Below, in pieces: positions 26,815-32,536 of a DNA stretch of 43,381 bases (the stretch's first letter is position 1; each line of letters starts with the position of its first letter). The notes below the pieces were generated by a model. The model was not told the DNA's origin and ran no database searches. It saw nothing but the letters and a program-made list of their open reading frames with translations. The position numbers were made by a program, and so were the translations under genes. The stretch comes from a virus, in the IMG/VR virus record IMGVR_UViG_3300027851_000052, positions 1 through 43,381 of that record. One strand, given 5' to 3'.

Positions 26815-28710
26815 CTAGATAAGTTCACAACTTCCGCCAGTACAGGCGTATTCCTTACTACCTTTCGTGCTGTCTTCTGCCTCGAATTCAGCCAGTTCTT
26901 TGAAATCAAGTTCCGGCATCTGTGCTTTCAATTCAAGGTATTCTGCTTCTGTACACTCCTGGTACGGGGCGAGCTTGTACACTCCACCATCGTACGGCAA
27001 GAAGCTAATACCAGATATATAATCCCAATTCTGCTGAACCCACGCACCTACAGCAAGCCATTCATCATCCTTCACATAGATCGTACAACTAGGTTTATGT
27101 TCACAGTACTCTTCCTGTAGCATCTTCCAGTACTCAAGCTGCTCTAGTGCGGTTTCCTGATCTCTGAACACCGCAGTACTCGGGGCTTCAATCGGGAATT
27201 CAAATACCAGTGTGTTAGCGGAGTGCATCTCTTCACCAACTTCAGGATGCACAGGTACACCCTTCTGGATCAGGAACTGCGCCAAAGGATCAACAGCATC
27301 TACACGTACTCGTCTGATGTACCATCTACTGTACCGAGGATGCAACCCAGATGCAGAGTCTACAAGTTGAGACACAGTGCCTGATGGTTTAACGCATGTA
27401 ATTGCAGCAGGCATGTTAATACCAAGTATATCCGCCCATGCTTCCGCAGTCAGTACAGCCTCGTACTTCATTGCACGCAGCCAGCTTCTAGCTTCGTCAG
27501 ACACAGTACCGAGTACAGGATGATCTCTCAGTCCTGTCAATGACACACCAAGCAGTCTCTCTTCCTCGCAGTTCTGCTGCCACTCTTTAGACACGAACTT
27601 GAAATCAGTGAATGTACTTTGCACTATCCCAAGTATGGTAGCATGGTACATCTTGATAATCAAGTCATCTAAAGTATCCTCTGGGCGGACGACTACCTCT
27701 GTCAAGTTACACACTTCAGCAGAGCGGAGCAGTATCTCACTGCATGGGTTGCATCCGAACTCGTAATCTGGGTCACGCCTACCCGACTTTCCGGCTATGA
27801 TCTTAGCGGATTCCCTGTTGAAGATACCACGCTCCCCGGACTTACTCTTCATTAGGGCAAGCCACTCTTCCATGAAGCGTTCAGCATCTGGCTTTTCGGT
27901 GTACGCTACACTGTTGTTGCTGAGCATACGCTGAGGATTAGTATCCCAGAACATACCCGCTTTAGCATTAGCCATTCTGTCATCAGACAGATTACTCAAG
28001 CTAATACATGCACTCCTTCGTACACCACCCGCAACCACAATGTTCGCTATCTTGCAGGCTATGTCGTGCACTTCAAGGCTGTTCAGCTTCCGGCCTCGGG
28101 CCTGCTGGAACATCCGGGTCGTGAACTCAGCCAGCTCTAGGAGCGGCCCAGGACCGCTGGCGCGGCCTCCGAAGGTCTTCAGCTTGGCCCCCTTGGGCCG
28201 GACCCTGGACACGTTCAGAGGCCGGATAATGCCGTCATACAGGCCATGCAGGAGGCTCAGGTAAGCCCTGGCCCAGCCCTCCTTGGAATCTGGGACGATG
28301 ATCTCGTAATCGGACGCTGAGAGCGTGTCAGGGACAACCGGGAGGCGGTTGATAACCTGGCGCTCCACGGAGAATCCGACCCCGGTTCCGTTCATCAGGA
28401 CGTACAACATCTCAGCAAATGCACGCACTGAGTTCAACTCCCGGTACGCGCAATTGTATATGCACATGTTGTCGCGTTCTGCTGCTTTACCTGCTGTCCA
28501 CAAGGCACGCATACTTGGCATCACCTTCAAGTCGCGGATGCTCTTGCACGCCGCAGTGAAGTGCAGCTTGTATTCATCAGGTACTTTCTGGATAAAGAAA
28601 TCCATGTATCGGTTTACAGTTTCATGCCAGTCCTCTCTTCGTCCTTCTTTCTCAAGCCACCTAGCGTACGTACGCTTATAGATGAATTCTTGGTACACTG
28701 TGTTAAACAT
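26815..28710 (-). CDS. nrdJ: Class II (B12-dependent) ribonucleotide reductase
   Basis: A 631-residue monomeric adenosylcobalamin-dependent reductase, which would convert ribonucleoside triphosphates to deoxy forms without oxygen or a second subunit. Visible features: a Cys near residue 88 in CIYNCAYR, the active-site block FGCNPCSEILL (thiyl Cys and Glu), CVKPSGTVSQLVDSASG, and a C-terminal CTGGSC pair that would re-reduce the active site, as in the Lactobacillus enzyme. Its ATG overlaps the DNA polymerase stop by one base. A stretch in the 5' half (about 28080-28400) is GC-rich and GTAC-free, unlike the rest. Confidence 0.93.
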   Translation of the reverse strand: MFNTVYQEFIYKRTYARWLEKEGRREDWHETVNRYMDFFIQKVPDEYKLHFTAACKSIRDLKVMPSMRALWTAGKAAERDNMCIYNCAYRELNSVRAFAEMLYVLMNGTGVGFSVERQVINRLPVVPDTLSASDYEIIVPDSKEGWARAYLSLLHGLYDGIIRPLNVSRVRPKGAKLKTFGGRASGPGPLLELAEFTTRMFQQARGRKLNSLEVHDIACKIANIVVAGGVRRSACISLSNLSDDRMANAKAGMFWDTNPQRMLSNNSVAYTEKPDAERFMEEWLALMKSKSGERGIFNRESAKIIAGKSGRRDPDYEFGCNPCSEILLRSAEVCNLTEVVVRPEDTLDDLIIKMYHATILGIVQSTFTDFKFVSKEWQQNCEEERLLGVSLTGLRDHPVLGTVSDEARSWLRAMKYEAVLTAEAWADILGINMPAAITCVKPSGTVSQLVDSASGLHPRYSRWYIRRVRVDAVDPLAQFLIQKGVPVHPEVGEEMHSANTLVFEFPIEAPSTAVFRDQETALEQLEYWKMLQEEYCEHKPSCTIYVKDDEWLAVGAWVQQNWDYISGISFLPYDGGVYKLAPYQECTEAEYLELKAQMPELDFKELAEFEAEDSTKGSKEYACTGGSCELI

Positions 28711-29627
28711 CACTCTGCCTTGTAATGAGTTAAATTGTACATATCCGGCCCAACTTCTACCTCCACCGGGAACGGAACGTCAATCTGCATATCGAACGCT
28801 GTGTTGAATATCTCAGGCACACTCTCCATGATAGGCTGGATAACTTGCACCACTTCATGCAGTACATCCTTGTGACAGTCAATCCAGATACAGTCATGCA
28901 CAGTATTCACAAGCTCAGCTTTACCTTGCCAGAAGTCACGGCGGATGAACTCACGAATCAGTTTACCAAGTACAGCTTGTACGAACTCACCAGATGTACC
29001 TTGTACTGGATAGTTCTTCAGTTCAGTAGGCATGAAGCTATCTTTGATACCTTCGCGTTGCATCCACTTCGGAGCAGGGTACGTTCTGAATCCGTACAGT
29101 GTACCAGTTGGAGCTTGCCAGTACCCACGCCTGAACACAGACCCAAGTACAGGATCAAAGAACGGCTTAGCTGTGGCCTCTACTGCGCGTTGTACTGACT
29201 TATTGAATTCAACTACACCGGGGTACAGTCTATCTTCCGCTTCAATCATAGCTTCAACAGCTTCCTTGCTGATCCCTGTTGTTGCGCTGATCTTTGCAGC
29301 ACCTGCACCATAAGCCCTTTGAAAGCTAAAAACCTTGCATTCAGTTCTACGCTGCTTCCAGAGTTTGTAGTCAGGATCGGTTTCATCCTTGCACTTCTGC
29401 ACAGCCTCTTCGTACGTGCATCCGAATCGCGCTGACACACGCTTGCAGTGGAAGTCAACCTTGTTCTTCAAGTCCTGTCGCAGATGCAGGTCATTACTTA
29501 ACACACCCTGACCCACCACTTCAAGCTGGCTGTAGTCCGCCTCGATCATCACGCCGTCTTCACCGTACCGGGATACGAACATCTGTTTGACTTTCGATTT
29601 ATCCTTTCGTGGCAGGTTCTGCATGTT
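28710..29627 (-). CDS. DNA polymerase (family A), exon 2: polymerase domain
   Basis: This exon encodes the last 305 residues. It starts within the conserved block (NP)NMQNLP and carries motif A (VMIEADYSQLEVVGQG), motif B (RTECKVFSFQRAYGAG) and motif C (NTVHDCIWID). Motif B has Phe at the position of E. coli F762/T7 Y526. Motif C reads HDC rather than the more common HDE. The exon begins directly after the group I intron; an internal ATG at 29624 is not needed as a start once splicing is considered. The spliced protein has 767 residues. Confidence 0.9.
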   Translation of the reverse strand, partial: NMQNLPRKDKSKVKQMFVSRYGEDGVMIEADYSQLEVVGQGVLSNDLHLRQDLKNKVDFHCKRVSARFGCTYEEAVQKCKDETDPDYKLWKQRRTECKVFSFQRAYGAGAAKISATTGISKEAVEAMIEAEDRLYPGVVEFNKSVQRAVEATAKPFFDPVLGSVFRRGYWQAPTGTLYGFRTYPAPKWMQREGIKDSFMPTELKNYPVQGTSGEFVQAVLGKLIREFIRRDFWQGKAELVNTVHDCIWIDCHKDVLHEVVQVIQPIMESVPEIFNTAFDMQIDVPFPVEVEVGPDMYNLTHYKAE

Positions 29628-29683
29628 CCTTATATTCAGTTGAGGGCGTTAGTCTCAACCCGTCTTGCGACTGCTGTATATTC

Positions 29684-30229
29684 CTATACAGAGTAGACTA
29701 TATCATCTCTCCGAAATGGAGAGCCGTGCGCTTCCACCCACTTGAGTGTACTCTCTTTCGAGATAGTCGTTGCACCTTCTAATGAATGCAATCTCATATG
29801 GTCAGAGATTGTCATCAACACTAAGTTCTCGAACACATTGTTGTGTGGATTACCATCACAATGATGCACTACAAACCCGCTAGGAATTTGAGTTAAGCCA
29901 AGTGCTTCACACACTACAATATGGTGCACAAATACATGATGACTAGCTTTTCGTCCAGTGTACCAGTCTGGTTTAACGCGCATGAGATAGCCTTTCGAAT
30001 CAGACACATCCCCTATGTATCTAGGGTGCTCTGTACCCGTCTTACCCAACATAGGATTCTTACTTCCCAGCTTTGAATTGCGATACGTAGTACGTTTTCT
30101 TGCATCGCGTTCATCTTTAGTATAATGTTTTTGCACATACTTATGTACGTGTTTATATGGTATACCAAGATGGTTCGCTATATCCTGCATAGTCATCTCT
30201 GTTGTTTCATACAAGAACTTAATGTCCAT
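29684..30229 (-). CDS. Intron-encoded HNH homing endonuclease
   Basis: A 181-residue enzyme. The N-terminus looks like a helix-turn-helix (MTMQDIANHLGIPYKHVHKY). The nuclease centre is HHCDGNPHNN followed by FENLVLMT and DHMRLHS, an HNH motif. Such enzymes cut intron-less copies of the gene and spread the intron. It has its own ribosome site (AAGGAG, eight bases before the ATG). The last codons coincide with the ribozyme core, so that DNA serves both protein and RNA. A promoter-like match also lies inside this gene (30143-30157). Confidence 0.9.
   Translation of the reverse strand: MDIKFLYETTEMTMQDIANHLGIPYKHVHKYVQKHYTKDERDARKRTTYRNSKLGSKNPMLGKTGTEHPRYIGDVSDSKGYLMRVKPDWYTGRKASHHVFVHHIVVCEALGLTQIPSGFVVHHCDGNPHNNVFENLVLMTISDHMRLHSLEGATTISKESTLKWVEAHGSPFRRDDIVYSV
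30143..30157 (-). promoter_or_regulatory. Promoter-like match inside the HNH gene
   Basis: The minus strand reads TATAAACACGTAC, identical over 13 bases to the core of the intergenic promoter candidates. Here it encodes part of YKHVHKY. It may be chance, or an internal promoter that drives polymerase exon 2 and ribonucleotide reductase. Confidence 0.3.
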
Positions 30230-30321
30230 TTGGCACTCCTTAGTGCTGTTTGGTTAGCTTGGCTCAGGATTGTCCGGTCTGGATATTCCCTGAATTCACA
30301 CGGTTTTACAACCCCATGTTA

Positions 30322-31707
30322 AGGGTTAGAACTACTCAATCGGGTCGTGACTGTAAGGGTATGGTTCAGCATGTGATGCAAGATACTATCGGCTGGATCA
30401 ACCAGGGTGAGCATACCTACTGCTTCTCCATCCCCTTTATCCCGCCGATAGTACGTGCCTATCTCTTTCAACAGTGCAGCGTACCTACTCAAGTACTCAC
30501 AGAACGGAATACCTGAATGCTGAAGAGCTTCCATTTGCTCGTCACCAGTGCTGTACACTACATTACCTGCGCGGTCCGTAGTCTTGGTAGCCCAATCAGG
30601 ATCGGGCTGTACAATCTGCGGCAGGTGGAATAACTTATCGTACAGCTTAGTCTTCAGCTTCCCCTGTACTTCAACCTTCTTAGTCTTGTACTCCCCCTTC
30701 CGCTTACCTGACAAGAACGTATCGCACTCGTACACTACACCATTCTTAGACTTGAACTTACCTGGGGCGATAATCAGTTCAGGTGGTACAGGTCTTCCTT
30801 GCCACAAGTACCTATCTTCAGTAGCCTTAGTGTACGTACAGTTTCCTTCGTCATCCAAGATAGGACCACGCTCTTGGTAGTGCAGTGCTCCACCGAACAG
30901 GATAGCAGACTTCTGCCTATTGCTCCATGTCCATTCAATCTGCTCCGGCAAATCAGGAGGTAAGAACTCACTGAGCTTAGCAGTGATCGTATCTAGTTCA
31001 TCCTGCAATTCCACCAGCAGTTCTTCAGCTTTATTCAAGTCAACCTTGATACCGTTGAACTGCATCCTAGATGTGCAGAGCATCCCGTCCATGCGGAACA
31101 ACCATGCTTTGAACATCTTGAGCTTGTGCAGTTTCTCAACCTGCCCAGTGTACACCTTCAACGTATTCCCGATGTCACCGCCCTGCTTGTCATGTCCAAT
31201 CAAGTACTCAAGCATGAGGTCAACAGGTATCTCGTACGTCTTGATGCCTTGCTTCCACATCTCAGCAATAGCATCCACCTTTGTATCTCCACCGTACAAT
31301 GGAGCTACGTCATTCAAACTGCACATCTGTGCTTTCTGGTGCTGTGCTCTAAGCAGGTACTCTGCGTACTGGCAGTCATGCACTCGACCACCGCGCTTGA
31401 AGAACTCAATAAGCTGAGGGTCTTTCCACAAGTAATGCAGATCGTACCCGCAGATATTAAAGCCTACGAGTACATCTATGTTATCCAAGATACCATCAGG
31501 GAACCTACGAGGAAGCCCCGCAGGGTCAAGGGAGTACACCGCTTTATTCTCATCTTCATCGTACCGCCTGTACCCGAAGTAATACAAGCCGTTCTTGTAC
31601 TGTCCCGTTTCATCTTTTACAAATGGGTTAGACTTTCTCTTGAACGCTGCTTCTGTCCCGCACTCAAGGTCTATGATTAAGTACCGTCCAAGGTCATCCG
31701 ACTGCAT
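30322..31707 (-). CDS. DNA polymerase (family A), exon 1: proofreading and palm start
   Basis: This exon gives the first 462 residues. LIIDLECG is the Exo I motif and VGFNICGYDLHYLW the Exo II motif of a 3'-5' exonuclease, so proofreading appears intact. The exon ends in TVTTRLSSSNP, the conserved family A segment just before the active site, where the intron interrupts the gene. Without splicing the reading frame would stop one codon into the intron. The ATG chosen has AAGGAGGAACCTG before it and overlaps the ligase end by 14 bases. Confidence 0.92.
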
Positions 31708-32536
31708 CAGGTTCCTCCTTGTCATCATGCCATGCTTGGAACGTAGCCTGCCTGAGTGCTTTGTACCCAGGATCAGGCTTAGCTTTAACCTTGCAGATAC
31801 GTCCGATGTACCTGAAAGGATTCTGGAACATATCAGTACGCTCGTCGTGCTTCATCTTACCTGCACCGACCTTGAACTCTGCACCAGTGGCGTCACTGCA
31901 CCAGATAGCTCCAACCATCCCTTTAGGTTCACCGTACTTGTCAACAGCTTCTTCGTACGCAAGTACCTTCAGGTCGAGGGTATCCTCGAACACGTACTTC
32001 TGGCTGGCCCATGAGCGGGTCAGTGTGTACAAGCCATCGGTAGGCCGGATCATTGCACCCTCAACAGGTCTGAACTGCCTAGCTTTTTCCAAGTCCTGAA
32101 TCCACCGTTGCAATCCTTCAGGAGTTTCGTACAAGTACTGCGGCACTAGTTTAACAAAGCGCATGCATCCTCCAGGAAGATTGCACCACCATGTCTGCAA
32201 TGCTATAAGCCTAGCATGGAACGGTGTATTCGGGATGTCTGCATCGAACACCCAGAGTTCAGCATCTCGCCATGCTTCATCCTTCCTGCACTTACCTGAG
32301 ATAGTTCCGAAGTTCATCCCTGGCTTGTAATGCTCCCCAATAATAGGGAAGTCAGGCAGGAACGGTTTAATTTTATCATGTATCCACTGTACACCAAGCA
32401 AAGGCTTGCTCTGCCTACTCTGCATCTTCTCTTTAGTGTACACCCCAGGAACACCATCGAGTTTCTCACTGACGTACACAGGGAAGCTGCACTTACTTGG
32501 ATCGTAGTTCTTACTGAGCATCATAACTTCAGACAT
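31694..32536 (-). CDS. ATP-dependent DNA ligase
   Basis: A 280-residue ligase. The adenylated Lys lies in SEKLDGVPG (motif I). Other nucleotidyltransferase motifs are IIGEHY, EGAMIRP and LDLKVLAYEE, and a small OB-like tail follows. It should seal nicks between Okazaki fragments. It is shorter than T7 ligase (359 residues) but keeps the core. It directly follows a Cys-rich gene with no gap and precedes DNA polymerase. Confidence 0.92.
   Translation of the reverse strand: MSEVMMLSKNYDPSKCSFPVYVSEKLDGVPGVYTKEKMQSRQSKPLLGVQWIHDKIKPFLPDFPIIGEHYKPGMNFGTISGKCRKDEAWRDAELWVFDADIPNTPFHARLIALQTWWCNLPGGCMRFVKLVPQYLYETPEGLQRWIQDLEKARQFRPVEGAMIRPTDGLYTLTRSWASQKYVFEDTLDLKVLAYEEAVDKYGEPKGMVGAIWCSDATGAEFKVGAGKMKHDERTDMFQNPFRYIGRICKVKAKPDPGYKALRQATFQAWHDDKEEPDAVG

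Follow-up and report, generated by a model that had tools for sequence, protein, structure and literature searches.

The window, the whole stretch of 43 381 nucleotides of IMG/VR virus record IMGVR_UViG_3300027851_000052 that was analysed, carries on its minus strand a DNA polymerase gene divided by a group IA2-type intron, within which lies an ORF for an HNH homing endonuclease (table 1).

A divided polymerase gene

The segment that hosts the intron is the conserved RLSSxxPNxQNxP of phage family A DNA polymerase, split at 30322/29627. The upstream part reads ...RLSSSNP, with 30322 as its last exon base, and its ORF (31728–30319) closes at the in-frame UAA that opens the intron; the downstream part begins NMQNLP, with motif A (DYSQ) approximately 30 residues further on. 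Removal of the intron in silico joined the exons to give RLSSSNPNMQNLP. The same polymerase segment was present in the nearest relative found (L040), at 82% amino-acid identity, colinear with the joined exons and insert-free across the site (RLSSSDPNMQNLP). Placement of the intron was based on the restored exon frame, a match to the Rfam model RF00028, covariation across 19 introns and the colinear intronless L040. The boundaries (30321 and 29628) and length (694 nt) given in the original prediction were correct on the minus strand, and the predicted restoration of SSSNPNMQNLP by splicing was borne out as RLSSSNP/NMQNLP. In the last exon bases before the intron (30322–30330), the window has TCTAACCCT where the intronless L040 has TCTGATCCG; the window version pairs better with the guide, perhaps as a remnant of exon co-conversion.

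Table 1. Features of the intron and its host gene, in window coordinates and in order of transcription.
Feature	Position	Strand	Details
5' exon, family A DNA polymerase	30319–31728	minus	PHROG 9556 and 17; Pfam DNA_pol_A weak
Group IA2-type intron	29628–30321	minus	694 nt; first base U (30321), last base G (29628)
P1	30310–30327	minus	exon AACCCU 30327–30322 with guide GGGGUU 30315–30310; read directly
P3 5' strand CCGUGUG	30297–30303	minus	outside ORF; partner 29730–29724
P4/P5	30264–30293	minus	UCAGG 30293–30289 with CCUGA 30268–30264; P5 enclosed
P6b hairpin GCACU-AAGG-AGUGC	30233–30246	minus	contains ribosome-binding site AAGGAG of HNH ORF
HNH homing endonuclease ORF, 181 aa	29684–30229	minus	PF13392 HNH_3 E 1.4e-11; PHROG 7545 E 1.3e-49
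P6a 3' (UUAG), P6 3' (GG), R and P7 5' GACUA (29768–29764)	29764–29782	minus	within ORF
P7.1 and P7.2, group IA helices	29731–29763	minus	within ORF
P3 3' strand CGCACGG	29724–29730	minus	within ORF; coevolves with 30303–30297
P8 hairpin CUCUCC/GGAGAG	29707–29723	minus	within ORF
S element and P7 3' strand UAGUC (29700–29696)	29696–29706	minus	within ORF; invariant in 19 introns
P9 hairpin CUGUAUA-GGAA-UAUACAG	29674–29691	minus	contains ORF stop UAG (29686–29684)
3' exon, DNA polymerase	28710–29627	minus	Pfam DNA_pol_A E 8.8e-27; begins NMQNLP

The ribozyme core and its covariation

Helices P1, P3, P4, P5, P6, P6a, P7, P7.1, P7.2, P8 and P9 could all be placed. The core contains the P3, P4, P6, P7 and P8 of a group I intron together with the P, Q, R and S elements, and both P7.1 and P7.2 are present between P7 and P3', which defines subgroup IA2; the link between these two helices is GUAC, likened to the G-U-A link described in PMC3428280. 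A U·G pair occupies the splice site in P1, with the in-frame UAA at 30321–30319, and this pair, P4 (UCAGG/CCUGA) and P7 (GACUA/UAGUC) were legible just as predicted. The internal guide also pairs with altered exon sequences in most relatives. The 3' splice site reads ...AUAAGG/AACAUG, the terminal intron base being G. P10, the pairing of the guide with the 3' exon, is weak at best; a possible CAUG/CAUG pairing was seen by eye and would compete with P1.

For covariation analysis, the ORF-free parts of 19 related introns were aligned (alignment A1), with 500 shuffles as control. In the named structure, standard pairs filled 95.1% of cells (83.9% when shuffled), 23 pairs were changed on both sides (13.4 when shuffled) and 117 cells were changed on both sides (29.5 when shuffled); 0 of 500 shuffles reached any of these values. 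When the partner strand was slid by 1 to 3 columns, pairing was only 29–46%. P3 is the key helix, since one of its strands is coding and the other non-coding: three of its seven pairs were altered on both sides, so that the strand outside the ORF coevolves with the strand inside it. Both sides were also altered in five of six pairs of P8, which lies wholly in the ORF, in five of seven pairs of P9, in all four pairs of P6a, in one pair each of P7.1 and P7.2, and in four pairs of P4/P5, where every cell was paired. P7 and P6 were invariant across the 19 introns and thus give no covariation evidence either way. A hand-drawn P6b pairing (54% paired in A1) was rejected as misaligned, and the RNAalifold placement was used instead.

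The Infernal search with Rfam models that accompanied the original prediction as its check gave a divided answer: a permissive local search of 1.4 kb matched RF00028 at 33.7 bits (E 1.6e-6), whereas an Rfam scan of the whole window at the default gathering threshold (gathering score 50 for RF00028) gave no match. With the same model, the Pf-WMP3 intron, the splicing of which is published, scored 31.9 bits, a relative with most of its ORF deleted (L012) scored 72.5 bits, and the intronless L040 gave no match at E 0.01. By these controls, the low score in the window is accounted for by the ORF splitting the core. The ORF also caused the P7 5' strand to be misplaced in the Rfam alignment; that position, approximately 360 bases too early, was rejected, R at 29768–29764 being supported by the relatives. 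Standard Rfam thresholds should therefore be used with caution, as they overlook such introns when a large ORF divides the core.

The endonuclease ORF, related introns and translation

The HNH ORF begins in the P6 extension, downstream of the P6a 5' strand, and stops at the UAG in P9. Its HNH catalytic domain was recognized by PF13392 at 44.2 bits against a cutoff of 24.8. ORF and core overlap by approximately 99 nt. R and S were confirmed to fall within the final 32 codons of the endonuclease gene (ORF 30229–29684), as had been predicted, but that account understated the overlap, which also takes in P6a 3', P6 3', the whole of both P7 strands, P7.1, P7.2, P3', P8 and half of P9. The ORF stops of relatives vary: some lie in P7.1/P7.2, others upstream of, within or downstream of S, and others again in P9 or past it.

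This is a known design, with published precedents in Pf-WMP3, PhiI, W31 and T4 td, and the larger overlap here is a difference of degree. The intron of the cyanophage Pf-WMP3 (group IA2, L030) is spliced in vivo and in vitro, with guanosine-dependent self-splicing on record, and its endonuclease I-PfoP3I, active in vitro, nicks at the same Pro/Asn site (PMC3428280). It shares with the window intron the Pro/Asn insertion point, the UAA start, P7.1/P7.2, an HNH ORF in P6a that enters the core and a ribosome-binding site in a P6b hairpin (PMC3428280); its ORF, however, ends within P7.2 (PMC3428280), whereas the ORF described here extends further, across P3', P8 and S, and ends in P9. The introns of PhiI and W31 (I-TslI; Bonocora and Shub 2004), as they are presented in PMC3428280, are likewise IA2 introns of a T7-like polymerase with HNH in P6a, but are inserted elsewhere, at site 881 as numbered in that paper. 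A homologous polymerase intron, annotated as such, is present in Escherichia phages PhAPEC7 and PhAPEC5 (L015; approx. 69% nucleotide identity, HNH protein 62% amino-acid identity); there the ORF stops just before S, and the host phage is N4-like (Schitoviridae). In T4 td, as here, the ORF (I-TevI) lies in the P6 loop with its 3' end in P6a/P7 and its ribosome-binding site in a hairpin, but the nuclease is GIY-YIG and the overlap is 20 nt (PMC3073962). SPO1 I-HmuI and Bastille I-BasI are also HNH nucleases of introns in phage DNA polymerase genes, although the SPO1 ORF lies at P8 and overlaps by 9 nt (PMC3073962, Table 1).

Two polymerase insertion points 6 nt apart, NP/N (30322/29627 in the window) and NPNL/Q, were found in a set comprising the window and relatives L002, L009, L016, L018–L020, L027 and L028. 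The target contains the near-repeat AACCCN-AACCTN, and the guide could therefore slip by one unit; an HNH protein tree did not settle whether the two sites had a single or a repeated origin. The L012 intron (L012:2890–3260), which is the same intron with most of the HNH ORF deleted, lies at DPNL/QK in a phage gene that by eye is coat-protein-like. The resemblance of this site to NPNL/Q suggests ectopic spread into a capsid gene by target similarity. Further introns were noted as follows: in Staphylococcus phage SSP49 (L038:459–1309), three group I matches (34.5, 103.7 and 97.3 bits) in 850 bases that are nearly unannotated; in DSS3_VP1 (L036:279–2299), a large terminase gene interrupted by an endonuclease VII ORF together with a core of the same kind; and in Klebsiella phage vB_Kp_Z1 (L035:585–1296), a related core and an HNH ORF, which stops before R, between the parts of a DNA primase/helicase gene.

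Taken together, the locus is very probably a self-splicing, mobile group IA2 intron of the polymerase gene, with an HNH protein that serves homing, a passenger protein tail and ribosomes kept off the core. The pre-mRNA would fold as a ribozyme, be cut after the exon end ...AACCCU under guidance of GGGGUU, and have this end ligated to AACAUG... to give an uninterrupted polymerase. The HNH protein would nick or cut intronless polymerase alleles, into which the intron would be copied via repair. The ORF would first have been inserted at the P6 extension and then have lengthened through the core to the stop in P9; RNA pairing would hold the core sequence, with the C-terminal tail mostly a passenger. 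Two elements would exclude ribosomes from the core, namely the UAA of the 5' splice site and the hairpin that encloses the ribosome-binding site of the ORF.

This hairpin (P6b) has a folding energy of −5.7 kcal/mol in the window, and the hairpin at its position covaries in most relatives (seven sequences with two-sided changes at each of two pairs). In T4 td, occupancy of the core by ribosomes impairs splicing, and opening of the ribosome-binding-site hairpin leads to a splicing defect (PMC3073962). By analogy, the splice-site UAA and the hairpin suggest that translation of the core is damped and splicing protected, which we favour over a polymerase-level switch. Such a switch, in which translation of the full ORF would unfold P7, P3 and P8, block splicing and so set the level of polymerase, is unlikely. 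The ORF does run through P7, P3', P8 and S, and the impairment of td by ribosomes within its core (PMC3073962) fits such an effect, but the conserved features are ones that prevent the conflict. Nor do the relatives point to a conserved switch: the length of the overlap differs widely among them, and in many introns that share the core it is free of any ORF.

Constraint in the shared sequence

Among relatives, identical residues were encoded by the same codon in 210 of 217 cases (97%) at residues 154–168, compared with 33–45% at residues 1–148. Protein selection alone does not freeze codons, and the freezing in the overlap therefore points to selection at the RNA level. The core was also kept where it is non-coding: of the 93 distinct introns in which the 22-base core is matched exactly, 55 lack an ORF across R, and relatives L035, L038 and L039 retain the core as non-coding sequence. 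From the frozen codons and these non-coding copies, it follows that the RNA sets the constraint in the overlap. The C-terminal protein tail is probably a passenger of 'core creep', which was proposed by Edgell et al. 2011 as extension of an ORF into RNA that is already fixed (PMC3073962); the variable extension length that this entails was found among the relatives. With stop positions that vary, and with the active homologue I-PfoP3I ending within P7.2, the tail looks dispensable. The original prediction of a group I intron with an HNH ORF and DNA in dual use is thus supported by RF00028, HNH_3 (PF13392), covariation and frozen codons; of its statement that the stretch is constrained both as protein and as catalytic RNA, the RNA half holds through the frozen codons and the non-coding cores, but the protein tail appears not to be needed.

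In the remaining 38 of the 93 introns, an ORF of at least 80 codons reaches R, and 36 of these 38 ORFs do so in one frame, reading TTISKES, in several nuclease families (loci L054–L168). The TTISKES frame is open around R in 75 of the 93 introns, compared with 32 and 50 for the other two frames, and part of the frame bias is therefore mechanical. The remaining bias comes from approximately five to six sequence clusters and is no more than suggestive; the shared frame possibly goes back to common descent of these clusters.

It is distinctly improbable that the core-encoded tail is itself functional, for example in target binding or in maturase-like help with splicing, and held by selection on its amino acids. 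Such a role would agree with GATTISKESTLKWVEAHG being 97% identical at residues 154–168 and with the occurrence of TTISKES in a single frame common to at least several nuclease families, but codons and not just residues are frozen, which requires selection on the RNA, the identical letters are retained in non-coding copies, and I-PfoP3I is active with an ORF that stops within P7.2 (PMC3428280). Conservation of the tail for its own sake was rejected on the frozen synonymous codons and the core kept where it is non-coding. An intron-free reading, in which the polymerase would consist of two separately made proteins encoded on either side of an HNH gene, accords with several records in which a pair of polymerase ORFs and an HNH gene of its own are annotated. 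It is scarcely credible, however, in the face of a complete covarying ribozyme, exons in frame, the colinear intronless L040 and the splicing published for the homologous Pf-WMP3 intron (PMC3428280).

The reading as a mobile self-splicing intron with a passenger tail draws directly on this intron for its structure, its covariation, its frozen codons and its intronless relative. Splicing, nuclease activity, homing and translational damping would, by analogy, be as in its relatives.

A further, doubtful proposal is that the frozen P7–P7.1 core (...TTISKES, in fixed frame) acts as a 'landing strip' at which introns would repeatedly swap nucleases by recombination. It would be the tail common to several unrelated phage endonuclease families, namely HNH_3 with HTH, NUMOD4/HNH, HNH_2, endonuclease VII and families without a Pfam match. 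If this were true, mobile introns would owe their modular evolution to the overlap itself.

The intron offers a clean and quantifiable case in which a single stretch of DNA is both protein and ribozyme and in which, judged by the sequences, the RNA bears the constraint. Its relatives, with their differing extension lengths and with the same core occurring without coding, back the core-creep idea of 2011.
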